A program made the position numbers and the translations under genes. From Smithellaceae bacterium (GTDB taxonomy: Bacteria > Desulfobacterota > Syntrophia > Syntrophales > JAQULV01): DNA of 11,099 nt. Where the stretch lies: the NCBI GenBank assembly GCA_028718405.1, contig JAQULV010000013.1, forward strand, positions 1 to 11,099. Direction: 5' to 3'. This document shows, piece by piece, positions 389-10,889 of the stretch. Each line of letters opens with the position of its first letter. The stretch's first letter is position 1. The notes beneath the pieces are model-generated. The model had not been told where the DNA came from, did no database searches, and saw only the letters and a list, made by a program, of their open reading frames with translations.

Positions 389-1126
389 TTAAAGCTTCAT
401 ATCCAGGGTATAGAGTGCCCCTGTGTCGACGGCACGCAGTTTCAGCCGCAACTCTTTCACCTTCTTGGTCTCGCCGGGAAAGAAGATGAAGCCGTAGGCG
501 ACCTCCTGGGGTCGCACGGCCCGTCTCTCCAGCGAATTGTGTTCCAGGTCTTGCCTGATCTGATAGCGGACATCGGGATCGGAAAGCGCCTCGGCTCCGC
601 CCTTGGCCACTCCGATCGCCGCGCCGACGGCGGCGCCCTTCGCGGCCGTTTCCGCCACGTTATGACCCGTCACGATGCCGATGGCGGCGCCGATCACCGC
701 TCCCGCGGCGCCTCCAATAGCGCCCATTTTCCCCGCCTGCGGCGCGAGCTCGCCCAACTCCGTCTTCCGGGCGATGCGATCGTAGGTGAGCTTTGCATCC
801 ATCACCGGCCAAAGGTTGCTCTCCGTATCGACCAGGAAGGTCTGGTCGGAGACGATCTCCAAGGGGTGGCGCCCCTTGTTGTCAAAGATCACCTGTACGG
901 GCAGTATCCCCGCGCCGCGGATATCAAAGCCGAAGGCCGCCTGCGCCTCTTTGGAATCTTCATAGGCCTTCGCGGCAAGCGAGGCATCGGCCACCTCAAC
1001 GACATTGGGGTAGGCGGAAGGGAGCTTGAAAGGAACCACCTGTCGCTCGTAGTGTTCGCAGGCGGAAAAAAGGATCATTGCGACAAGCACCGATATGCAG
1101 AGACTGAGTCTTTTCATCCGTTTCAT
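389..1126 (-). CDS. Predicted lipoprotein with an internal glycine-zipper segment
   Basis: This 245-residue protein starts with a basic stretch (MKRMKR), a hydrophobic segment (about residues 7-20) and a lipobox-like FSAC. Cys23 is the probable lipidated residue, so the mature protein should be membrane-anchored in the envelope. Residues 70-120 look like a beta-rich domain (ILPVQVIFDNKG, PLEIVSDQTFLVD). Residues 132-180 form a Gly/Ala-rich glycine-zipper segment (AIGGAAGAVIGAAIG, then AAVGAAIGVAKGG). The C-terminus returns to beta-type sequence with FFPGETKKVKELRLKLRAVDTG. The ATG at 1126 follows AAGGAG at a 6-nt gap. M4 is a second possible start but is worse placed. It is the last gene of the operon, 18 nt after the GT2 gene, with a run of nine A on its own strand between them. 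I do not recognise a named family. A role in the outer envelope, for example assembly or stability, is inference from the signal and the neighbours. Confidence 0.82.
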   Translation of the reverse strand: MKRMKRLSLCISVLVAMILFSACEHYERQVVPFKLPSAYPNVVEVADASLAAKAYEDSKEAQAAFGFDIRGAGILPVQVIFDNKGRHPLEIVSDQTFLVDTESNLWPVMDAKLTYDRIARKTELGELAPQAGKMGAIGGAAGAVIGAAIGIVTGHNVAETAAKGAAVGAAIGVAKGGAEALSDPDVRYQIRQDLEHNSLERRAVRPQEVAYGFIFFPGETKKVKELRLKLRAVDTGALYTLDMKL

Positions 1127-1144: not shown

Positions 1145-1906
1145 TCAGTTCCTGTTCAACTCTTTCAGTTTAGCGTATTTGGAAAAGGTATAAAAGGAAT
1201 AATAGATGGAGAGGATAAGGCCGTAGTATCCGTCGAGAAAGCCGGCTCTCATGACGTACATATTGAAAAAGGTGTAGCCCGGGTGAAAGATGATGTGGTC
1301 CAGGCGCGCCCTCTTCTTCTCAATCTGGAGCTGCCGCGCCGCCAGGGTGGAGTAACGATCCAGGCGCGCTATGTAGTCGCCGATGGACTTGTAGGTGTAA
1401 TGTTCCATGGGGTTTTTAAGATGTCCCGATACCCCTTCAAGCTCGATTGCCTCGTGGACCTCGCGTTTGCGAAAGGTACCTCTGCCCCTTTTGAACAAAC
1501 GGAGGTTGTAGTCCGGATACCAACCGGAGTGCCTGATCCATTTTCCCAGGAAGAAATTCCTTCGGGCGATGAAGTAACCGTCCTTGGCGTCACCGCTTCC
1601 GATGACATTCTCGATTTCAAAGCGCAATGCCGGAGTGACCCGCTCATCGGCATCGAGGCTCAGAACCCAAGGTTTGGTGGCTTTGGACACGGCGCTGTTC
1701 TTCTGCGCGGAAAAACCCCTCCAGGGCTCCGTGTGGAATTGCACCCCGTAGTCGCGACAGATCTGCGGCGTGCTGTCGGTGCTCCCCGAATCGACGACCA
1801 CGATCTCGTCGGCCCATTTCACGCTCTCCAGACAGGGGCCGATGTTCTCCTCTTCGTTGCAGCAAATGATGGCAACGGACAGCTCGGCGCATCTCTTATC
1901 GGGCAA
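1145..1906 (-). CDS. Family 2 glycosyltransferase, WaaE/KdtX-like
   Basis: This is an inverting GT-A glycosyltransferase of family GT2, probably cytoplasmic-face and acting on LPS core or a related glycan. Seen: the N-terminal nucleotide-binding strand and loop (LSVAIICCNEEENIG, then VVVDSGSTDST at about residues 37-46), the metal-binding SLDADE (D85-A-D87), a WYPDYNLRLFKRG acceptor region, and a C-terminal HYTYKSIGDYIARLDRYS with a hydrophobic tail (GFLDGYYGLILSIYYSFYTF). This pattern is known from the WaaE/KdtX group of LPS core beta-1,4-glucosyltransferases. The frame can be extended to an ATG at 1984, but that would run through the end of the upstream gene. A TTG at 1906 sits 6 nt after a strong AGGAGGT (1913-1919), which overlaps the upstream stop codon. 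I therefore take TTG as the start, giving 253 residues. Sugar and acceptor are unknown. Glucosyl transfer is possible by homology only. Confidence 0.88.
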   Translation of the reverse strand: MPDKRCAELSVAIICCNEEENIGPCLESVKWADEIVVVDSGSTDSTPQICRDYGVQFHTEPWRGFSAQKNSAVSKATKPWVLSLDADERVTPALRFEIENVIGSGDAKDGYFIARRNFFLGKWIRHSGWYPDYNLRLFKRGRGTFRKREVHEAIELEGVSGHLKNPMEHYTYKSIGDYIARLDRYSTLAARQLQIEKKRARLDHIIFHPGYTFFNMYVMRAGFLDGYYGLILSIYYSFYTFSKYAKLKELNRN

Positions 1907-1917
1907 GACCCTACCTC

Positions 1918-3063
1918 CTACAATCCTTTCTTCTGCAACAGCTCGCGGTAGATTCGATCCATCTTGTCGGCGACGGCATCCCAACCGTTGCCCCGGGCCG
2001 TTTTCAAGGCTTCTTTCCCCATCCCTTCGCGCCGCCCGCCATCGGCCAGTTTTTCCAGAACCGCCGCAAGTCCCGCAGTGTCATCGGGCGCAACGATAAA
2101 GCCATTCACCCCGGCGGTGACGATATCCTGCGCACCCACCTTGTCACTGACCACTACGGGAAGTGATGCCGTCATGGCCTCGAGAACCACCATCCCAAAG
2201 GTATCGAACTTGGAGAGCATGACGTAGAGATCTCCCGCCAAGTAGGTTTCTATGAGTATCTCCCTGCCCAAGATCCCCGCGAAGACGACATTATCCCCGA
2301 CACCCTCCTTCATTGCCAGTGCTTTGTAGGGACCGCTGTTGCCCTTGCCGACTACCAGGAGGCGAGGACTCCCGCCCTGACGTCTCTTGAAACTGCCCAG
2401 AGCTTGGATCAGAACATCCAACCCTTTGACCTCGAAGTTCATGGCCACAAAGAGGATCAGAAGATCGTCCGCGCCGATATGGAAGCGGTTTCTTGTCTCG
2501 CGGCGGCATAGCGTTCGGTCTTTCCTTTCAAATTCAGCGACGTCAACGCCCGGAGGAACAATTCTGAGTTTCTCAGCGGCAACGGGATACACCTCCGTGA
2601 ACTTTTCCTGTGCGAGATGCGAGACGGAGATGAAGATGTTGCATCGAGAAGACAAGACGAGCCTTTTCTCTACCTGCGCCGTTGCCAAGTCAAAGAGGCT
2701 GGGCCTTTTTCGGCGGATCTCCCGTACCCAGCTGAGATGGGGAATGCCGTGCATGGTGAAGACATCGGCGGAGAAGATCCGGTCGTGGGCGTGGACCAGA
2801 TCGAAACCCATGCGTTCTATCTTCCGTCCGGCCAGATAAGCGAAGCTGGGCGTCGTGAGGTATTTTGGGAAAGAGATGATGGGGACCTTGTGAAAGGTGA
2901 TGCGCTCCGAGGTCGCCCGCCAGTGGTTGGCCAGCACATGTATTTCGTAGTCCTCATTGCGGGCAAGCCTTTCCGTCAATTCGGCCGCGTACTGCTCGGT
3001 CCCTCCCGCCAGACCGTATCTGGGGACGACCACTGCTATCTTGTAGGATCGCTCAGGTTTCAC
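1918..3063 (-). CDS. Family 4 (GT-B) glycosyltransferase, WaaG-like
   Basis: A 381-residue retaining GT-B transferase. The N-terminal acceptor domain opens with KIAVVVPRYGLAGGTEQYAAEL (about residues 8-29), the usual Gly-rich loop of GT4 enzymes. It continues with LVHAHDR (89-95) and FISVSHLAQEKF (144-155). The C-terminal donor domain has RIVPPGVDVAEF (167-178), ILFVAMNFEVKGLDVLIQAL and LLVVGKG. The donor-binding signature FDTFGMVVLEAMTASLPVV (286-304) carries Asp287 where the E-x7-E motif normally has its first Glu; Glu295 is kept. The layout resembles WaaG-type LPS core glucosyltransferases, but GT4 specificity cannot be read from sequence. The start is GTG at 3063 after GAGGA. ATG alternatives lie too far inside the domain. 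It follows the putative glycosyltransferase gene by 27 nt, and its stop overlaps the ribosome binding site of the GT2 gene, which suggests coupled translation. Confidence 0.9.
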   Translation of the reverse strand: MKPERSYKIAVVVPRYGLAGGTEQYAAELTERLARNEDYEIHVLANHWRATSERITFHKVPIISFPKYLTTPSFAYLAGRKIERMGFDLVHAHDRIFSADVFTMHGIPHLSWVREIRRKRPSLFDLATAQVEKRLVLSSRCNIFISVSHLAQEKFTEVYPVAAEKLRIVPPGVDVAEFERKDRTLCRRETRNRFHIGADDLLILFVAMNFEVKGLDVLIQALGSFKRRQGGSPRLLVVGKGNSGPYKALAMKEGVGDNVVFAGILGREILIETYLAGDLYVMLSKFDTFGMVVLEAMTASLPVVVSDKVGAQDIVTAGVNGFIVAPDDTAGLAAVLEKLADGGRREGMGKEALKTARGNGWDAVADKMDRIYRELLQKKGL

Positions 3064-3090: not shown

Positions 3091-3978
3091 TTATTTCGTA
3101 GTCTCCACCTGCAATGGCACTCCATCGTACGAAGCCTTCGCAATTCGTTCGAACAGATCGGCTTCCTTCCGAAAGGCGTCGCTGTAGCCCACAGCGCCGA
3201 TGTGGAGCCACCTGTCATCGATGACGGTGAACTTTCCCGAAATCCCCCGTTCCGGAACCGTGATCTCCGCGTCCCTCTGCGACGCGAAGCGCAGCTGCGA
3301 GCGATCGTATCGGCAATAAAGATGTGGCCAGTTGCGACCTCCCGTATCGAGGCCGATGGAGAAATCGTTGAGGTAATTCAAACTCAGACCATCGACCGCG
3401 GGAAAATCGTACGAACAGAACCCTGCCCACAGAGACCACGCCCAAGGGCTCGCGTTGAGAACCCCGTAAAACGGCTGGCCGGCCAGGATGCCTCCCAGGT
3501 CAGTTTTGACAATGGGAATGAGGTCGTGGTCGATATAGGTAAACATCTTTGGTCTTAGGGTTTGGACCACGTTCCTGAATATCCAGGTCATCGCCATGCC
3601 GTGCGAGCGATTGGGATGCCGTGTCGGGTTGAAAGGCAGCGGCAGGTAGAGCGTGTCGTATCGACGGCATACGAGCTCGATTTCTTTCCGCACCTGCTTG
3701 TTGCGGGAGTTGTCGAAAACGAGCAGCGCTCCATCGGTGAGATGCCGCTGCGCCATCTTCAATAACCACCCCAGGGCCCAGGGCTGTTCATAGGCAACGA
3801 CGAGCCCGACATTCTTCCCCTGCAGACGACCGGCATCGCGGAGGAACTCACTGTAGCCGCGCGGCTTCCATTTTACAAAGAGACCCTGCAAGCCGTCGTT
3901 GCAGATCTGGATCATAAAATGATCCAGCGGCTTCCAGCGGCGCCATTCCCGTCTTGAGAAATCCTTCAGATCACGCAT
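3091..3978 (-). CDS. Unrecognised protein, probable GT-A-type glycosyltransferase
   Basis: I do not recognise a named family for this 295-residue protein. It has the outline of a GT-A transferase: GKNVGLVVAYEQPW (54-67), a second strand ALLVFDNSRNKQVRKEI (84-100), YLPLPFNPTRHP (111-122), then a helix leading into MFTYIDHDLIPI. The D150-H-D152 triad sits where GT-A enzymes place the metal- and nucleotide-sugar-binding DxD. Later conserved-looking parts are GLDTGGRNWPHLY (209-221) and RWLHIGAVG (256-264), where His259 could be a C-terminal metal ligand. There is no signal peptide or clear membrane segment. It sits between the sugar-nucleotide genes and two definite glycosyltransferases, which supports a transferase role. 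The ATG at 3978 has no ribosome binding site of its own; the nearest strong one serves an upstream leader ORF that overlaps this start by 8 nt. Function is inference. Confidence 0.72.
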   Translation of the reverse strand: MRDLKDFSRREWRRWKPLDHFMIQICNDGLQGLFVKWKPRGYSEFLRDAGRLQGKNVGLVVAYEQPWALGWLLKMAQRHLTDGALLVFDNSRNKQVRKEIELVCRRYDTLYLPLPFNPTRHPNRSHGMAMTWIFRNVVQTLRPKMFTYIDHDLIPIVKTDLGGILAGQPFYGVLNASPWAWSLWAGFCSYDFPAVDGLSLNYLNDFSIGLDTGGRNWPHLYCRYDRSQLRFASQRDAEITVPERGISGKFTVIDDRWLHIGAVGYSDAFRKEADLFERIAKASYDGVPLQVETTK

Positions 3979-4087: not shown

Positions 4088-5137
4088 TCAGGTCTCGGCT
4101 GGTTCCACGCCGTGCCAGTTGATGGTCCTTCTTATCGCTTCTTCCAGATCGATATTCTGTCGCAGCCCCAGTTCTTCCCTCGCTCTCGCCGTGGAAGGAA
4201 TATAGCGCTCGGGAAGAGAAGAACCCTCGGCCTTCTCGTCGATGACGACCCGTGACTCGGACCCGAAGGCCTTTGCCACCGTCGAGGCGAGATCGGCAAT
4301 AGAGATCGCCTCCTCCGACCCCACGTTATAGGCCCGCTGCGGCTTGCCCAGGAAAAGTATCGTCCAGAGCCACACGGCCAGGTCGGCCGCATAGAGATAG
4401 GACCGGTAGGGCGTTCCGTCGCCCTTTACATGAACGGGTCTTCTGCGGATCCCATCGCCGATGAAGTTGCCGATCGCGTATTGGGCATCGAGCGGCAGAT
4501 AAGGACCGACAAAGGCAAAACAGCGCGCGATCTTTGTCTGTATCCCATAAGTTCTTCCATATGCCGAGCAGAGAAATTCAGCGGCACGTTTCCCCTCCCC
4601 GTAGGCCGAGCGCTCCCCCAAGGTATCAGGGGCACCGCTGTATTCCTCGCTCAGGTGAGTGAGCGGCGGCGGTTGTTTCCCGTATACCGCGCCGGAGCTC
4701 GTCAGGAGAAACTTTCCCGCGCCGCACGTCCTCGCGAACTCAAGAACGCGCCTCGTTCCCGCCGCAATCGTGTCGAAACTCGTAAGGGGATCATCCACGC
4801 CCACCTGCGGGCTGGCATCGGCCGCCGCGTGAATGACGTGGGAAAACTCGCCGTTAGGAAAAGAGAAGGACCGGACATCTCCTTCATGGAGGCTGATGGC
4901 CGGGCGGGACGCGAGGTGCGGGGCCTTCTTCCGAAAAGCCTGCCCGTCCCTGGTCAGGACAATCGCCTGCGCATTCAGACCCAGTTCTTCGTTTGCGTAG
5001 AGGAAGCTCTCGAGAAGCCAGCAGCCGACAAAACCTGTCCCCCCGGTAATAAAGATCCTCGTTTCCTTCAATTCATTCCAAAGGGATTGGGTCTGTGCAA
5101 AGATGTATTCCAGGTCGGCCTGCAAACGGGAACCCAT
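4088..5137 (-). CDS. Extended SDR NAD(P)-dependent nucleotide-sugar epimerase/dehydratase/reductase
   Basis: A 349-residue extended short-chain dehydrogenase. Seen: the Rossmann dinucleotide loop ITGGTGFVG (residues 30-38), a GDVRS acidic strand end (86-90), HAAADASPQVGVDDP (103-117), the LLTSSGAVYG strand with Ser147/Ser148, and the catalytic Y179-x3-K183 in SAYGEGK. It also has the RSYLYAADLAVWLW substrate-domain motif (245-258) and YNVGSEEAISIADLA (270-284). This is the family of RfbJ, the tyvelose epimerase and YerF-like reductases. It stands directly after the transketolase pair (6-nt gap; AGGTGA overlapping the transketolase stop serves as its ribosome binding site). In the branched-sugar hypothesis it would reduce the keto group of the branch; in a plain 3,6-dideoxyhexose pathway it would reduce or epimerise C-4. 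The family is certain, the exact reaction is not. An N-terminal extension of about 25 residues precedes the Rossmann fold. Confidence 0.9.
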   Translation of the reverse strand: MGSRLQADLEYIFAQTQSLWNELKETRIFITGGTGFVGCWLLESFLYANEELGLNAQAIVLTRDGQAFRKKAPHLASRPAISLHEGDVRSFSFPNGEFSHVIHAAADASPQVGVDDPLTSFDTIAAGTRRVLEFARTCGAGKFLLTSSGAVYGKQPPPLTHLSEEYSGAPDTLGERSAYGEGKRAAEFLCSAYGRTYGIQTKIARCFAFVGPYLPLDAQYAIGNFIGDGIRRRPVHVKGDGTPYRSYLYAADLAVWLWTILFLGKPQRAYNVGSEEAISIADLASTVAKAFGSESRVVIDEKAEGSSLPERYIPSTARAREELGLRQNIDLEEAIRRTINWHGVEPAET

Positions 5138-5143
5138 ACAGGA

Positions 5144-6091
5144 TCACCTATCCTTGCCGGGAGTTCGCATCAGTTTTCTCAAGGCCCCGGTAACGGCATC
5201 CGCGATATGGCTGCCGCTTAATAGATTTTCATCACGCAGGTAGGAATGAGACCCCACAGTGGCACTGCCGGTATTGCAGATACCGACCTGCAAGAGCAGG
5301 CACTGTCGGAAACCGGAGGCGACGATCCGCGCCACGGCGTCCCCCAGTCCCCCGCGGCATGAATGCTCCTCTACCGTAACGATCAGCTTATGGGAACGTG
5401 CAATCTCTCCGATCGTTCCCTCATCTATGGGGCTTATCGTGGGTATGCTGACGAGCGACGCCTTCACACCCTTTGCCTCCAGGAGTTGCGCAGCTTGAAC
5501 CGCTTCACCTAATATGGCGCCGGAAGCGATGATACATGCGTTCTCGCCTCTGCACAGCCAGATCGCTTTGTCGATCGGAAAGTCCGCGATCGCGCCATGG
5601 ATAATGGCCTCTCCGCCTTTTCCCAATCTCAGGAAACAAGGCCCGGGACATTCCGCAACGGCGCGCGTCGCCATCCGCACCTCCACCGGATCGCCGGGGA
5701 CGATCACTTTCATATTAGGCATCGCCCCCATGACGGCCAGGTCTTCCACGCCGTGATGCGTGTATCCCGCCGACCCATAAGAGAAGCCGCCTCCCACGGA
5801 AACGATCTTCACATCGAGATTATGGTAACAGATGTCGTTGCGTATCTGCTCCAGGCAACGCATGACGGGGAAGTTCGCAATCGAATAGATGAAGACCTTC
5901 TTGCCGCACAGGGCCAATCCAGCGGCGATGCCCGCCATATTCTGCTCGGCAACACCAATATTTACATACCTCCCGGGAAAACGATCGGCAAATCGCTCGA
6001 GCACCGAATAGCCCAGATCGCCGGTGAGCAACCAGATCCTTTCGTCCTTTTCCGCCAGGGTACAGAGGCTCTCGATAAAGGTCGTTCTCAT
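5144..6091 (-). CDS. Split transketolase, C-terminal subunit (pyrimidine-binding and C-terminal domains)
   Basis: A 315-residue protein equal to the second half of a transketolase. The pyrimidine-binding domain has GDLGYSVLERFADRFPG (residues 24-40), then NIGVAEQNM, where Glu49 is the Glu that activates the TPP aminopyrimidine. It is followed by FIYSIANFPVMRCLEQIRND (67-86) and YTHHGVEDLAVMGAMP (110-125). The C-terminal domain begins near residue 180 (ENACIIASGAILGEAV) and contains VTVEEHSCRGGLGDAVARI (238-256). The ATG at 6091 overlaps the stop of the N-terminal subunit gene as ATGA, typical for coupled synthesis of two subunits of one heteromeric enzyme. Together they move a two-carbon ketol unit using TPP and a divalent metal. 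The position inside a CDP-sugar operon suggests a sugar-specific role rather than the pentose phosphate pathway. Split transketolases are also housekeeping enzymes in archaea and some anaerobes, which remains possible. Confidence 0.93.
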   Translation of the reverse strand: MRTTFIESLCTLAEKDERIWLLTGDLGYSVLERFADRFPGRYVNIGVAEQNMAGIAAGLALCGKKVFIYSIANFPVMRCLEQIRNDICYHNLDVKIVSVGGGFSYGSAGYTHHGVEDLAVMGAMPNMKVIVPGDPVEVRMATRAVAECPGPCFLRLGKGGEAIIHGAIADFPIDKAIWLCRGENACIIASGAILGEAVQAAQLLEAKGVKASLVSIPTISPIDEGTIGEIARSHKLIVTVEEHSCRGGLGDAVARIVASGFRQCLLLQVGICNTGSATVGSHSYLRDENLLSGSHIADAVTGALRKLMRTPGKDR

Positions 6092-6900
6092 TTCTTGTCT
6101 TCCAATTCGCCCAGGGCTTTTATCAACTGTTCCGCGTTAGGCGATTTGTAATGCCACGCGAGGTTATCTTCCATGAAGCTGATTCCTTTGCCCTTTACCG
6201 TGTGTGCGATGACGACGCTCGGCTTCCCGTGTTCGAAAGGGACGCCGGCCAGCGCGCGCTCCACCTGCATATGATCGTGCCCGTCGACTTCGCGCACGGC
6301 CCAACGGAACGCCCGCCATTTGTCGAACAAAGGCTCCAGACCGATAACGTCCTTCACATGTCCGAAGCTTTGTATCTTATTGTAATCGACGATTGCGACC
6401 AAGTTGTCCAGTTCGTGTTGAGGGGCAAAGAGGGCCGCCTCCCAATTGGACCCTTCGTCCAGCTCGCCGTCGCCCAGCATCGCGAATACCCGGTAAGAGC
6501 TCCCCTCCCGCTTGCCGCACAGAGCCATGCCGCAGGCGATCGGCAGTCCGTGTCCCAAAGATCCCGTCGAGACCTCCACGCCGCTGATCCCGTGGCTTGT
6601 AACGTGACCGGAAAGCACGGCGCCGTCCCGACAGTAAGTCTCCAGGTGGGATAAAGGTATGAACCCCCGCTCGGCCAGCGCTGCATACAGAACGGCCGCT
6701 GCATGTCCCTTGCTCAGTATGAAGCGATCCCGCTCGGGATCTAAAGGAACGGCGGGATCGATTTTCAATACCCTGCTGTAGAGGACCGCGATGACGTCCG
6801 CGGCACTCAGGCAGGAACCTATGTGAGAAGCATTTGCCGCGTGAACCATCCGCAAGGCGTGCGCCCGGATTTTCCGCGCAAAGGTGACACTATCGTCCAC
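6088..6900 (-). CDS. Split transketolase, N-terminal subunit (TPP pyrophosphate-binding domain)
   Basis: This is the first half of a transketolase. Seen: SHIGSCLSAADVIAVLY (residues 25-41), the equivalent of the GHPG region with His26; ILSKGHAAAVLYAALAERG (61-79) with His66; and STGSLGHGLPIACGMAL (111-127) with His117. The TPP/metal motif starts at GDGELDEGSNWEAA (143-156) and ends at N174. HTVKGKG (233-239) and HYKSP (250-254) follow. A frame to an ATG at 7005 is open, but that would overlap the end of rfbF by 85 nt. GTG at 6900 lies 6 nt after GAGGGA and 20 nt past the rfbF stop, and the protein then begins MDDSVTFARKIRAHALRM, a normal start for the family, giving 270 residues. The two subunits together (585 residues) are slightly shorter than one-chain transketolases. 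For the role in this operon see the C-terminal subunit. Confidence 0.92.
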   Translation of the reverse strand: MDDSVTFARKIRAHALRMVHAANASHIGSCLSAADVIAVLYSRVLKIDPAVPLDPERDRFILSKGHAAAVLYAALAERGFIPLSHLETYCRDGAVLSGHVTSHGISGVEVSTGSLGHGLPIACGMALCGKREGSSYRVFAMLGDGELDEGSNWEAALFAPQHELDNLVAIVDYNKIQSFGHVKDVIGLEPLFDKWRAFRWAVREVDGHDHMQVERALAGVPFEHGKPSVVIAHTVKGKGISFMEDNLAWHYKSPNAEQLIKALGELEDKK

Positions 6901-6920: not shown

Positions 6921-7700
6921 CTACCAGGTCTTCCAGGGTGCATCGCCTGAATCCCACATTTGATTCAACATTTCGTATTCCCGGTAGGTGTCCATGCCGA
7001 TCCAAAAACCGCTGTGGGAAAAGGCCATCAGCTCACTTTCGGAGGAAAGCCTCTCCATGGGGGCGCGCTCCAGGATGCAGTCCGCATCAAGATAGCGGAA
7101 GACGTCACGGTTGAAGACGAAGAACCCGCCGTTGATCCACTCCGCCTGCGCCTTTTCGCGGAAGCTGTTGACCTTCCCGTTCTCCGACAGATCGAGAATG
7201 CCGTAACGGGAAGGCGCTCTCGTGGCGGTAAGAGTCGCGATCTTCCCGTGCGCTTTGTGGAAGGCGACCAGTTTTTTCAGGTCGACGTCGGCGAGACCGT
7301 CGCCGTAAGTGACCATGAAGGTCTTCGTGTCGATGTAAGGCTCGATGCGTTTTACCCTTCCCCCGGTCATGGTATGCAGGCCCGTATCCACCAGGGTAAT
7401 CTCGAAATCCTGTTCCGTGTGGTTGCTCTGGAAGGAGATCCGGGTGTTCTTTCCCAGGTGGATCGTGAAATCGTTGCTGGCCGCTTCGTAGTTCAGGAAG
7501 TAGTCCTTGATGACGCCGCCTTTGTAACCCAGACAGAGGATGAAACGCCGGAAACCGTAATGGGCATAAATCTTCATGATATGCCAGACGACGGGCTTGC
7601 CTCCGATTTCCACCATGGGCTTAGGCTTGAATTCCGTCTCTTCGCGCAGGCGCGTCCCCATGCCGCCACAGAGTATCACCACTGGGATGTTTTCCTTCAT
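6921..7700 (-). CDS. rfbF: Glucose-1-phosphate cytidylyltransferase
   Basis: RfbF joins CTP and alpha-D-glucose 1-phosphate to give CDP-glucose and pyrophosphate (EC 2.7.7.33), the first committed step of CDP-deoxysugar synthesis in the cytoplasm. Seen: the nucleotidyltransferase signature LCGGMGTRLREETEFKPKPM (residues 10-29) with the catalytic Lys region (Lys25/Lys27), EIGGKPVVWHIMKIY (31-45), the metal-binding YGDGLADVD (132-140), SRYGILDL (164-171), INGGFFVFN and GFWIGMDTYREYEML (231-245) with a second acidic ligand at Asp237. The C-terminus DAPWKTW is characteristic of RfbF. The frame extends to a GTG at 7730, but the ATG at 7700 has AAGGAG 5 nt upstream and gives 259 residues, close to the known size of about 257, so I chose it. 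It lies between the reductase gene (26-nt gap) and the transketolase pair (20-nt gap). Confidence 0.97.
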   Translation of the reverse strand: MKENIPVVILCGGMGTRLREETEFKPKPMVEIGGKPVVWHIMKIYAHYGFRRFILCLGYKGGVIKDYFLNYEAASNDFTIHLGKNTRISFQSNHTEQDFEITLVDTGLHTMTGGRVKRIEPYIDTKTFMVTYGDGLADVDLKKLVAFHKAHGKIATLTATRAPSRYGILDLSENGKVNSFREKAQAEWINGGFFVFNRDVFRYLDADCILERAPMERLSSESELMAFSHSGFWIGMDTYREYEMLNQMWDSGDAPWKTW

Positions 7701-7726
7701 CGAAACTCCTTCATCATTGATCTTTT

Positions 7727-8440
7727 TCACTCCCAGGCGTCGATCCGAACCTTCTCGGCCGGAACGCCTTTATCGCGCAAATCTTCCGAGATCCGCTTCA
7801 ACATCGCCGGCGGTCCCGAAATATAATAGCAGCAGGACAAAGGCGCGGCGATCCTCTGCCAGAGCCCCGTGACGGAAAGGCAGCCGCGCTCGATCCCTTC
7901 TGCGCCATCTTCCCCCTCGGTGAAATAGAATACGCGGAGGCGCGGCGTCTTTGCCGTAAAATCGTCTATGGCATCACGATAGATATGCAAGCCGCAGTTC
8001 TTCGCGCCGTAAGCGAGATAGACATCATGGTCCAGGTCGGGACCCAGGCTTCCCAGAAAGGCCGTGAAGGCGGTGATGCCCGTGCCGCCGGCAAACAGGA
8101 CCGTGTCGGAACCGCCCGAGATGACAAAATCCCCGTAGGGCATCTTCACCCATACGCCTTTTCCTTCGACCAGCTCCTTCTCCATACGGGCGGTGAATCT
8201 TCCCTTCACTGAATAGGAGAGGACGAGCCTTCCGCGCTCCTCCGGCGAACTGGCAATGGAGAAGACCCGCGATTCGGGCCAGAAATCGCTGGGGTCATAC
8301 TCGTCCAGAGCCAGGTGAAGAAACTGGCCCGCGCGAAATTTAGGCAGCCGGCGCTCGGGGCTAAGGATAAGCGTATAGACACCCGGGCCATGACAATGGA
8401 TCTTATCTACCCGGCAGCGGATTTTTTGTGCTACGGCCAT
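7727..8440 (-). CDS. FNR-family flavin/NAD(P)H reductase, probable partner of RfbH, without a [2Fe-2S] domain
   Basis: A 237-residue ferredoxin-NADP reductase-type protein. The FAD domain has FRAGQFLHLAL (residues 35-45), R58-V-F-S61-I-A-S for flavin binding, and YSVKGRFTARM (76-86). The NAD(P)H domain has VLFAGGTGITAFTAFL (114-129), VYLAYGAKN (140-148) and YYISGPPAML (205-214). It ends shortly after, at IDAWE. Classical RfbH reductases (AscD/RfbI/DdhD, E3) carry an N-terminal plant-type [2Fe-2S] domain of about 90 residues, which is absent: the protein starts at the FAD domain and its Cys (9, 16, 150, 187, 203, 204) show no C-x4-C-x2-C pattern. The frame could extend to an ATG at 8524 but that overlaps rfbH. 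ATG at 8440, with GGGGAAGGA just upstream, lies 13 nt after the rfbH stop. Its place right after rfbH supports electron delivery to RfbH. The direct electron route is inference. Confidence 0.85.
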   Translation of the reverse strand: MAVAQKIRCRVDKIHCHGPGVYTLILSPERRLPKFRAGQFLHLALDEYDPSDFWPESRVFSIASSPEERGRLVLSYSVKGRFTARMEKELVEGKGVWVKMPYGDFVISGGSDTVLFAGGTGITAFTAFLGSLGPDLDHDVYLAYGAKNCGLHIYRDAIDDFTAKTPRLRVFYFTEGEDGAEGIERGCLSVTGLWQRIAAPLSCCYYISGPPAMLKRISEDLRDKGVPAEKVRIDAWE

Positions 8441-8453
8441 GTTCCTTCCCCGC

Positions 8454-9779
8454 TCACGCCTGGAGGCGTTCTCCCGCCATGAACCTCTGAAAGACGTCTC
8501 CCACGTATTCCAGTCGTTCATCATCGAGCCCCGGATAGACGCCGATAAAAAAAGTCTGATTCATGATCGTATCGGTATTGGCAAGGTCCCCCGCGATGCG
8601 GTGATGGCAATCGGTGAAGGCCGGGTGGCGCAGCAGGTTCCCGCTGAAAAGGTTGCGCGTCTCGATGCGGTTCGCCTCCAGAAAACGCGTGAGGTCGTTG
8701 CGCGAGAACCCCGCATCCCGGCGGACGGTGATGACGAAGCCGAACCACGCCGGGTCCGAATGCGGCGTGGCCACAGGAAGGATCAGGCGATCCTCGTAAG
8801 GTTTCAGGATTGTCGTAAGCTTTTTGAAGTTCTCTTTGCGCTTGGCGATGAACAGCGGAAGCTTTTCGAGTTGGGCGCAGCCGATGGCGGCCTGCATATC
8901 CGTTACCTTCAGGTTGTAGCCGACGTGGCTGTACACGTATTTGTGATCGTAGCCGTAGGGGAGCGTTCCGAATTGCTGCCCGAAACGTTTCCCGCAGGTG
9001 TTGTTCTCCCCCCCCGCGCAGTAACAGTCCCTCCCCCAGTCGCGAACGGAACGGGCGGTTCTCGCGAGGTCTTCATCATTGGTGGCGACGCAGCCTCCCT
9101 CGCCCATGGTGATGTGGTGCGCAGGGTAGAAGGAAAACGTCGCCAGATGGCCGAACCCGCCGGTGAGCCGTCCGTCGTAGCGGGACCCCAGGGCGTCGCA
9201 GTTGTCCTCGATGAGCCACAGGTCGTGACCCTTCGAGAGCTCCATCACTTTATCCAGTTGGAACGGCACGCCCATCGTGTGGGCCATGACAATCGCCTTG
9301 GTTTTGGGGCCGACGGCGTCGGCGAGCCGCTCCGGGATGGCGGTGTAGTCGCCCAGATTCACATCGACAAAGACGGGCACGAGTCCGTTCTGGAGCAGGG
9401 GCGCCACGGTGGTGGGAAAGGCGGCCGCGACGGTGAGCACTTCGTCGCCGGGTTTAAGGCGCCGCTCTCCCAGCTTCGGAGAGGTGAGGGCGGTAACGGC
9501 CACGAGGTTTGCCGACGATCCGGAATTAACCAGCAGGGCATTGTCCAGATCCAGATAGGCGGCAAAATCCGCCTCGAAGGCCTCGGCATAGCGGTTCGCG
9601 GTAAGGTAGAAATCCAGACTCGCGTCGACTAGGTTTTGCAGTTCTTTCTCGTCGAAAACGCGCCCCGCGTAATGGACGAGATCGTGGGTGGGCTCGAAAC
9701 CTTTCGCCGTAAATTTCTCCTTGTGGTAGAGCGCTACCAACTCCAGTATCTGTTTGCGCAGTTCCTGATCCCTTCCCAT
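8454..9779 (-). CDS. rfbH: CDP-6-deoxy-D-xylo-4-hexulose-3-dehydrase (E1)
   Basis: RfbH removes the C-3 hydroxyl of CDP-6-deoxy-4-keto-glucose using pyridoxamine phosphate and a [2Fe-2S] cluster, with electrons from a flavin reductase. It belongs to the DegT/DnrJ/EryC1 aminotransferase fold. Seen over 441 residues: NSGSSANLVAVTALTSPKLG (85-104), GDEVLTVAAAFPTTVAP (111-127), LIEDNCDALGS (189-199), and FSFYPAHHITMGEGG (215-229). In the last motif His221 stands where aminotransferases have the PLP Lys, the hallmark of this enzyme. Asp195 and Tyr218 match the conserved acid and Tyr. The cluster ligands C194, C252, C254 and C262 fit the C-x57-C-x1-C-x7-C spacing known from the Yersinia enzyme. DWGRDCYCAGG and TCGKRFGQQFG surround them. 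The ATG at 9779 is 6 nt after the rfbG stop; its ribosome binding site is weak (AAAAAAGG abutting the ATG), which suggests coupling to rfbG. Confidence 0.98.
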   Translation of the reverse strand: MGRDQELRKQILELVALYHKEKFTAKGFEPTHDLVHYAGRVFDEKELQNLVDASLDFYLTANRYAEAFEADFAAYLDLDNALLVNSGSSANLVAVTALTSPKLGERRLKPGDEVLTVAAAFPTTVAPLLQNGLVPVFVDVNLGDYTAIPERLADAVGPKTKAIVMAHTMGVPFQLDKVMELSKGHDLWLIEDNCDALGSRYDGRLTGGFGHLATFSFYPAHHITMGEGGCVATNDEDLARTARSVRDWGRDCYCAGGENNTCGKRFGQQFGTLPYGYDHKYVYSHVGYNLKVTDMQAAIGCAQLEKLPLFIAKRKENFKKLTTILKPYEDRLILPVATPHSDPAWFGFVITVRRDAGFSRNDLTRFLEANRIETRNLFSGNLLRHPAFTDCHHRIAGDLANTDTIMNQTFFIGVYPGLDDERLEYVGDVFQRFMAGERLQA

Positions 9780-9785
9780 CCTTTT

Positions 9786-10889
9786 TTACAGACTCAATCT
9801 CATGCGGCGCTCTTTTGCGAAGGCCACGTATTTTTCTATCTGGGCGCAACATTTATCATACATATCCGGTCCCTGTCTATTTTCATAATAGTCCCGGTAC
9901 CAGGAGACGAGCATCGCGAGCGTTTCCTCGATGCTGAGGGTGCTTTGCCACCGGAGCTGTGCCAGCGCTTTGTCGCAGCAGAGCGCCAGTGTCCGCGCTT
10001 CATGGAGCGCACCGGGGACAGAGACGTCGCGCCAGGAACCTTTACCCCAGAGCTTGACCACGCGATCGACGACCTCCTTCACATTGAGCTGATCGTCTCC
10101 GGCAGGTCCGAAGTTCCAGGCGCCACTGAACGCCTCCGGATCCTCTCCCAGCCTGGCACCCAAAAGAAGGTAGCCGCTAAGCGGCTCCAGGACATGCTGC
10201 CAGGGCCTGATCGCCAGGGGATTGCGGATGTCGATGACGGCAGCTGCGCTCAAGGCGCGGATGCAATCCGGAATCAGTCGATCCGTCCCCCAATCTCCGC
10301 CGCCGACGACGTTACCCGCCCGGGCCGAGGCGGCACCGATCTCGCGACCCGCGGAACCCTTGCGGAAGAACGATCTCTGATAGGCCGAGAAGACGATCTC
10401 CGCCCCGCCTTTGGAGGCACTGTAAGGATCGTGACCGCCCAAGGGGTCGTTTTCACGGTACCCCCAGAGCCACTCGCGGTTTTCGTAACATTTGTCGCTG
10501 GTCACATTGACAACGACCCTGACCTTGGGGGTGAGCCGCACGGCCTCCATGACGTTCACCGTCCCGCCTATATTGGTGTCGAAGGTCCGTTTCGGGTCCT
10601 GGTACGAGGGACGCACCAAGGCCTGGGCGGCCAGATGAAAGACGTACTCGGGCTCGTACTTCCGGAACACCTCCAGAAGATGATCGAGGTCGCGGACGTC
10701 GCCTTCGATGCTGACGATCTTCTCTTTCAGGCGGCAAGCCTCAAAGTTGCTGGGAACGCTGGGAGGGGCCAGGGCGTAGCCGACCACCTCCGCCCCCAAT
10801 TCTCTAAGCCACAGGGCCAGCCAGGAACCCTTGAATCCCGTATGGCCGGTGACGAGTACCTTTTTGCCGCGGTAGACATCGTTAAACAT
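9786..10889 (-). CDS. rfbG: CDP-glucose 4,6-dehydratase
   Basis: RfbG converts CDP-glucose to CDP-6-deoxy-4-keto-glucose with bound NAD+ (EC 4.2.1.45). It is an extended SDR of 367 residues, near the usual 360. Seen: VLVTGHTGFKGSWLALWL (11-28) with the GxxGxxG NAD loop, VFHLAAQALVRPSYQDP (83-99), and the catalytic TSDKCYEN (130-137), which carries the Asp-Lys pair typical of CDP-glucose dehydratases rather than the Asp-Glu of dTDP-glucose dehydratases. It then has Y156-x3-K160 in DPYSASKGGAE, ASARAGNVVGGGDWG (187-201), RLIPDCI (204-210) and IRPWQHVLEPLSGY (227-240). The ATG at 10889 is the only suitable start; its GGAGG is 13 nt away, a long spacing. It is the first gene of the operon as seen here. 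A 13-codon ORF overlapping its start by 8 nt is described separately. Confidence 0.97.
   Translation of the reverse strand: MFNDVYRGKKVLVTGHTGFKGSWLALWLRELGAEVVGYALAPPSVPSNFEACRLKEKIVSIEGDVRDLDHLLEVFRKYEPEYVFHLAAQALVRPSYQDPKRTFDTNIGGTVNVMEAVRLTPKVRVVVNVTSDKCYENREWLWGYRENDPLGGHDPYSASKGGAEIVFSAYQRSFFRKGSAGREIGAASARAGNVVGGGDWGTDRLIPDCIRALSAAAVIDIRNPLAIRPWQHVLEPLSGYLLLGARLGEDPEAFSGAWNFGPAGDDQLNVKEVVDRVVKLWGKGSWRDVSVPGALHEARTLALCCDKALAQLRWQSTLSIEETLAMLVSWYRDYYENRQGPDMYDKCCAQIEKYVAFAKERRMRLSL

Follow-up and report, generated by a model that had tools for sequence, protein, structure and literature searches.

Upon analyzing 11,099 nucleotides of a Smithellaceae bacterium genome (contig JAQULV010000013.1 of assembly GCA_028718405.1; this whole stretch is referred to as the window), we identified an operon that probably adds a two-carbon branch to an unusual sugar, since a transketolase split over two genes (tkN and tkC) replaces in it the other carbon-joining enzyme of related operons. 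The minus strand of the window carries a single run, rfbG-rfbH-reductase-rfbF-tkN-tkC-SDR (Table 1). As the best explanation of this run we favor, with modest confidence, a route in which a ketol unit would be transferred to the C-4 ketone of CDP-3,6-dideoxy-4-hexulose and the product then reduced by the SDR. The computed basis consists of (i) the gene content; (ii) an intact catalytic core; (iii) a changed substrate pocket; (iv) an SDR family common to loci with YerE-like carboligases, which are of the acetolactate-synthase type; and (v) a fusion of an SDR to tkN in a relative. We infer the donor, the acceptor, the position of attack, the product and the substrate of the SDR.

In the proposed pathway, RfbF, RfbG and RfbH, which by the established pathway produce CDP-3,6-dideoxy-4-hexulose, would supply this compound. 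TkN/TkC, acting as a ketone-accepting transketolase, would take a ketol unit from a donor of central metabolism (a ketose phosphate or hydroxypyruvate), and the joining of these two carbons to the C-4 ketone would give a 4-C-hydroxyacetyl (glycoloyl) branch. The SDR would then reduce the branch ketone, yielding CDP-3,6-dideoxy-4-C-(1,2-dihydroxyethyl)hexose, and neighboring glycosyltransferases would put the branched sugar into a surface polysaccharide.

Table 1. Genes of the operon and its flank in the window, in the order of their reading
Feature	Positions	Strand	Evidence
rfbG, CDP-glucose 4,6-dehydratase	9786..10889	-	TIGR02622 477.5 bits, curated cut-off 278
rfbH, CDP-4-keto-6-deoxyglucose 3-dehydrase (E1)	8454..9779	-	NF011936 688.7 bits, cut-off 423
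Short FNR-type reductase	7727..8524	-	PF00175 32 bits; flavin-reductase model NF005963 65 bits, cut-off 230 not reached
rfbF, glucose-1-phosphate cytidylyltransferase	6921..7730	-	TIGR02623 332 bits, cut-off 300
tkN, ThDP-binding half of split transketolase	6088..6900	-	270-aa open frame, GTG at 6900 to stop at 6088; PF00456 149 bits; best PDB match 6yak
tkC, pyrimidine-binding and C-terminal half	5144..6091	-	315-aa open frame; PF02779 115 bits, PF02780 77 bits
Extended SDR, proposed branch ketoreductase	4088..5137	-	PF01370 133 bits
295-aa protein, between SDR and glycosyltransferases, in line with the operon	3091..3978	-	
GT4-type glycosyltransferase	1918..3063	-	PF00534 109 bits
GT2-type glycosyltransferase	1145..1984	-	PF00535 73 bits

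The initial annotation had claimed a set of RfbF, RfbG and RfbH, two transketolase halves with an intact TPP motif and catalytic glutamate, an SDR directly after them, and no YerE-like gene, and all of this was borne out. Each of the three Rfb proteins scores over its curated NCBIfam cut-off, and RfbH carries FYPAHHITMGEGG (a His-containing motif) and CYCAGGENNTC (a Cys motif), which we take to be the active-site histidine motif and the cysteine motif of iron-sulfur 3-dehydrases. In the AscD/RfbI type, an E3 reductase with a 2Fe-2S domain adjoins RfbH; the window has no such neighbor, as only the FNR part was matched (Pfam, NCBIfam), and no 2Fe-2S domain, in the 265-aa frame of its FNR-type reductase. 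The true start of this frame is probably near 8430, and its product is possibly the electron donor of RfbH. Matches to this reductase also lie beside rfbH in two other loci (L120 and L041). Given this start and the GTG start of tkN, the spacing from rfbG to the SDR is -4 to 23 bases; the SDR begins 6 bases past tkC. The SDR matched no NCBIfam equivalog over cut-off, and the protein at 3091..3978 had no Pfam or NCBIfam match at E <= 0.001. Farther along (389-1126, minus strand), a protein that is lipoprotein-like by eye, with a glycine-rich middle, had no Pfam match at E <= 1e-5. A scan for promoters and terminators gave counts no higher than in shuffled sequences.

The GTG start of tkN was chosen by us, an open frame with a TTG start beginning at 7005. 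As in other split transketolases, a ThDP half and a pyrimidine/C-terminal half lie on two genes: tkN has GDG at 143-145 and, at N174, the asparagine of DYN, while the catalytic Glu of tkC is residue 49, within AEQN. The halves are intact and overlap by 4 bases, and we rejected a broken or chance frame. Among solved structures, they are closest to the two chains of the split transketolase from Carboxydothermus (6yaj/6yak). The AlphaFold model of tkC (pLDDT 87), in which a low-confidence loop (105-111) adjoins the differing residues discussed below, gave its best fold matches with 6yaj (TM 0.86-0.88). No acetolactate-synthase-type TPP domains (PF02775/PF02776), by which a YerE-like carboligase would be recognized, were detected among the ten window proteins scanned, and a search of the genome (86% complete) with a YerE-like protein at E <= 1e-20 returned a sole match of 109 bits and 27% identity, covering residues 219-568 of 614.

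Although the catalytic core is kept, the substrate pocket is not. In E. coli TktA numbering, the window pair retains H26, H66, H100, D155, N185, H261, R358, S385, E411 and H473, but R91, H461, L466, D469 and R520 are replaced by C, G, Y, A and K, so that the R91, H461, D469 and R520 of a pentose-phosphate transketolase (EC 2.2.1.1) are all missing. Similar replacements were found in 44 loci (L005-L048) of the genome_contigs set, which comprises 46 loci minus L049 and L050 (24% identity). The H461 position is glycine in 42 of these and alanine in two; D469 is replaced in 43, being kept in L017; and of the 42 loci that have a tkN half, 39 carry another residue at R91 (L029 and L034 keep R, and L017 has a gap). 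The R520 position is mostly K, with R, G or Y elsewhere. Conversely, the split pairs L052-L060 retain all four residues, and neither rfbF nor rfbG was present in any of the nine fetched surroundings of such pocket-keeping pairs (L169-L177, 4.5-19.5 kb). In E. coli transketolase, D469 pairs with R91, a salt bridge that D469T removed, and the engineered enzyme (D469T, R520Q) is reported to have better uptake of aromatic aldehydes (PMC5073344). By analogy, the natural pocket changes may admit a CDP-ketosugar.

Loss of D469 as a diagnostic residue was rejected, because D469 is missing in the catabolic split pairs L184 and L185 (Ser at H461, Leu at D469) and in 12 split pairs of the phylum that keep H461 and R520 and have Ala at D469, and is kept in L017. 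The catabolic pairs adjoin FGGY kinases. The 12 (L214, L215, L217-L220, L222, L223, L225, L226, L229 and L231) represent a further type of split transketolase, and 11 of them also have Ala at R358. In a quick tree of 60 rows with a long E. coli outgroup, the polysaccharide-type transketolases form a 47-row clade (SH-aLRT 97); single-half loci (e.g., L012, L033), DXS rows, human and Carboxydothermus fragments, and duplicates were left out of this tree.

To place the pair in the context of related operons, we searched 395 genomes of the phylum for CDP-glucose 4,6-dehydratase, which scored over cut-off in 63 of them, and fetched the DNA around all 66 places over cut-off other than the window (L103-L168, 3.4-19.5 kb; L126 is from the window's own genome). 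Thresholds were at least 400 bits for rfbH, at least 150 bits for the acetolactate-synthase type or a transketolase pair for the carboligase, and at least 150 bits for an SDR of the window type. A ThDP carboligase was found in 11 of 20 rfbG loci with rfbH versus none of 46 without (p=1.6e-7, the rows not being phylogenetically independent). Ten of these 11 are of the acetolactate-synthase type and one is a transketolase. A window-type SDR occurs in seven of the 66 loci, and six of these seven contain a carboligase, versus five of the 59 others (p=3e-5, with the same non-independence of rows). In the PDB, the L121 carboligase best matches JanthE (8rph), a YerE-like enzyme (PMC12188165); the remaining carboligases of the acetolactate-synthase type are termed YerE-like solely because of how they score against a related query.

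The transketolase locus of this survey, L127, has the order rfbH-rfbG-rfbF-tkN-tkC-SDR; compared with the window, rfbG and rfbH are swapped and the reductase is missing. Within the phylum, the pattern of rfbFGH plus split transketolase is represented by two loci, the window and L127. Among the YerE-like loci, L121, L122 and L168 contain genes of the NeuB family and L124 a DmpG-type aldolase with an acetaldehyde dehydrogenase, which might produce longer keto acids as donors for branched sugars; the donors favored by ErwE reportedly include 4-hydroxy-2-oxo acids (PMC12247030). The ten window proteins scanned include neither a NeuB-like protein nor a donor-making aldolase, and a transketolase could use central metabolites as its donor supply. 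Among the transketolase loci, one (L027) contains a DmpG match.

Like the association of rfbH with carboligases and the pocket changes, the relationships of the SDR favor a branching role. In a quick tree, from which pieces under 150 aa or 90 bits were left out, it falls in a 12-row clade (SH-aLRT 100) of which six rows stand in transketolase loci, five in YerE-like loci and one in neither. Its nearest rows, L122 (spanning two adjacent frames) and L168, are both from loci with rfbFGH and a YerE-like gene. A search centered on the SDR in the 395 genomes of the phylum gave 14 places in 13 genomes, the window included. A YerE-like gene is near nine of the 14, two of which, in G208, share one carboligase gene, while in G159 it lies several kb from the SDR; a transketolase pair is near two, the window and G398. 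In the DNA fetched around the remaining three (G165, on a 4.8-kb contig, G235 and G368), neither was seen. Searching plasmids with the SDR returned 35 records, none of which reached 60% identity; identity is 31-33% in the 15 that were listed, and most of the annotated ones among these are named UDP-glucuronic acid decarboxylase. The best Foldseek match by E-value of its AlphaFold model (pLDDT 85) is human UDP-xylose synthase.

The transketolase subtype extends well beyond this phylum. Of the 44 genome_contigs loci, a set biased to CDP loci because the query came from a CDP operon, 25 contain both rfbF and rfbG, one rfbG alone, and 18 neither, several of the 18 being on short contigs. Record titles of the 25 include Acidobacteria, Omnitrophota, Anaerolineae, Verrucomicrobia, Lachnospiraceae and Micrarchaeota. 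As rfbH (370 bits) is missing in 12 of the 25, the acceptor in these would not be a 3-deoxy sugar; four of the 12 (L008, L013, L035, L036) have a C-methyltransferase match instead. A transketolase pair and an acetolactate-synthase-type carboligase occur together in five loci (L020, L022, L026, L027, L046), and L020, L022 and L026 each combine both enzymes with a C-methyltransferase and rfbG-rfbH. On plasmids, the order is rfbF-rfbG-SDR-rfbH-tkN-tkC in Methylovirgula sp. HY1 and rfbF-rfbG-methyltransferase-[SDR fused to tkN]-tkC in Paenibacillus cellulosilyticus (L182). The SDRs of these two plasmids (L181 and, fused to tkN, L182) belong to another SDR group, outside the window's clade.

Within the phylum, 31 of 36 tkC places were residue-typed, and 16 of the 31, including the window, have Gly at the H461 position. 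Of the 15 Gly-type places whose surroundings were inspected (L232 was left out; some lie on short contigs), only the window and G398 have rfbF/rfbG nearby, and we therefore rejected a strict link of the subtype to CDP genes. It is instead a broader polysaccharide family in which the acceptor may differ between loci. Its presence in polysaccharide loci that have no CDP-sugar genes means that it does not specifically mark the proposed sugar. A DegT-type aminotransferase is near the pair in six of the 13 remaining places (L233, L235, L236, L238, L240 and L246, with no rfbF/rfbG in the fetched DNA), and the subtype was once found near pseB/pseC (L183). We tentatively raise the possibility, which we hold at well below even chances, that Gly-461 split transketolases are a widespread, unrecognized ketone-accepting family adding two-carbon ketol branches to nucleotide-linked keto sugars of surface polysaccharides, the branch ketone then undergoing reduction by an SDR in CDP loci, or amination by a DegT enzyme in non-CDP loci.

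As suggested by the initial annotation, we searched the genome for a second transketolase, and its assembly contains two besides tkN/tkC: one frame, of 662 aa, is of the human type, and the other, of 605 aa, is TktA-like and ends 86 bases before its contig end. The possibility that tkN/tkC is the sole transketolase is therefore excluded. In the 60 relatives closest to the window's genome, 19 best matches were residue-typed and all 19 fell outside the Gly-461 type, so that the pair is sporadic. The same genome has a second rfbG-rfbF pair in another CDP-sugar locus (L126; contig C258, 772-3616), where the frames that follow resemble, by eye, a cupin-type sugar epimerase and a methyltransferase.

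These results bear on three other explanations. An ordinary pentose-phosphate transketolase, in the operon by chance or supplying precursors such as heptose, would be consistent with a catalytic core that is kept, as are the equivalents of R358 and S385, yet we consider it improbable: the two further transketolase genes and the changed pocket make a household role unlikely, whereas the split pairs that do keep all four pocket residues lack rfbF and rfbG in their fetched surroundings. The pair is thus probably not the household transketolase, as far as can be judged from sequence. Similarly low is the probability of a transketolase fold that mimics YerE, decarboxylating pyruvate and adding an acetyl unit to give a yersiniose-like product. 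The SDR family common to YerE-like loci would suit such an enzyme, as would the slightly better score of tkC with DXS, a pyruvate user (115.6 bits), than with human transketolase (105.8 bits). However, both halves best match the split transketolase 6yaj/6yak, and that characterized enzyme is reported to refuse pyruvate as a donor (PMC7661550).

It is more conceivable, although still unlikely, that the pair serves another sugar of the same polysaccharide (another NDP-ketosugar or a precursor) while the SDR makes an ordinary unbranched dideoxyhexose by C-4 reduction. The occurrences of the subtype in loci whose fetched DNA held no CDP genes, near DegT aminotransferases and near pseB/pseC are in line with this, and among the 50 matches listed for the SDR model the highest query-normalised TM (0.81-0.82) belongs to a Campylobacter NADP-dependent CDP-sugar reductase (8v4g/8v4h), which fits plain CDP-sugar reduction. 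Against it, 11 of the 14 places with the window-type SDR have a carboligase or transketolase nearby, L182 carries a fusion of tkN to an SDR from another group, and no second sugar-nucleotide pathway was seen among the ten window proteins scanned.

Ketol transfer followed by SDR reduction, the interpretation put forward by the initial annotation, hence remains plausible and, while unproven, is better supported than it was from sequence alone. That the transketolase stands in the place of a YerE-like carboligase is favored by the SDR family, the association of rfbH with carboligases, the pocket changes, the SDR-tkN fusion and the two other transketolases; the subtype's occurrence without CDP genes speaks against its use as a specific marker. 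Counting against the proposed route are the breadth of the subtype beyond CDP loci, the 12 of 25 loci that lack rfbH, the five loci with both kinds of carboligase, the membership of the two plasmid SDRs in another group, and the sporadic, two-locus pattern within the phylum. The suggested survey for rfbFGH, split transketolase and SDR yielded L127 within the phylum, but rfbF/rfbG were near only two of the 15 Gly-type places. If the interpretation is true, ordinary surface polysaccharides have, in addition to the YerE route, a transketolase route to C-branched sugars, and these enzymes form a set for direct tests of ketone acceptance by transketolases, described as pending (PMC12247030). The predicted sugar, 3,6-dideoxy-4-C-(1,2-dihydroxyethyl)hexose, would be expected in isolates such as Methylovirgula sp. 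HY1.

In the literature searched, which most subscription papers lay outside, we found neither a paper describing split transketolases beside CDP-dideoxyhexose genes nor an assayed enzyme of this type, nothing fitting on a dihydroxyethyl-branched sugar or pillarose, and no polysaccharide with such a branch. For a link between transketolase and glucose-1-phosphate cytidylyltransferase, the literature searched offered one paper, on viral metagenomes. Coxiella virenose was dropped as a lead, the available portions of the virenose papers making no mention of a transketolase that we found. An exopolysaccharide cluster of Actinoplanes contains DegT genes and, as domain predictions, a split transketolase (PMC13390465). 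The initial annotation had taken YerF to be the yersiniose reductase, whereas a 2016 paper calls the ketoreduction of yersiniose uncharacterized (PMC4753412).

Among known systems, the window resembles those of YerE, JanthE and ErwE in that a ThDP carboligase is proposed to act on CDP-3,6-dideoxy-4-hexulose in a surface-polysaccharide operon, and its SDR family occurs beside YerE-like genes. It differs in that the carboligase is a split transketolase rather than a protein of the acetolactate-synthase fold, in the expected donor, a ketol rather than a keto acid, and, relative to L121, L122, L168 and L124, in that none of the ten proteins scanned is NeuB-like or a donor-making aldolase. With the Carboxydothermus hydrogenoformans enzyme (6yaj/6yak) it shares the domain split, the fold and the catalytic core; the equivalents of H461, D469 and R520 are kept there but are G, A and K in the window. 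For miharamycin and amipurimycin, it has been proposed that a keto sugar receives its hydroxyacetyl group from a ketone-accepting two-gene transketolase, and a bioinformatic study lists 13 further putative ketone-accepting sequences, split-gene and all from Streptomycetes, none of the ketone-accepting transketolases having been characterized in vitro according to the portion of that source available (PMC12247030). By description, these are like the window pair in the two-gene transketolase and the proposed ketol addition to a keto sugar, but they belong to antibiotic pathways, whereas the window pair comes from other bacteria and lies in a surface-sugar operon of the CDP-dideoxyhexose type. 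Transketolase-based branching beside CDP-dideoxyhexose genes would thereby differ both from the known YerE route and from the split transketolases proposed for antibiotics.
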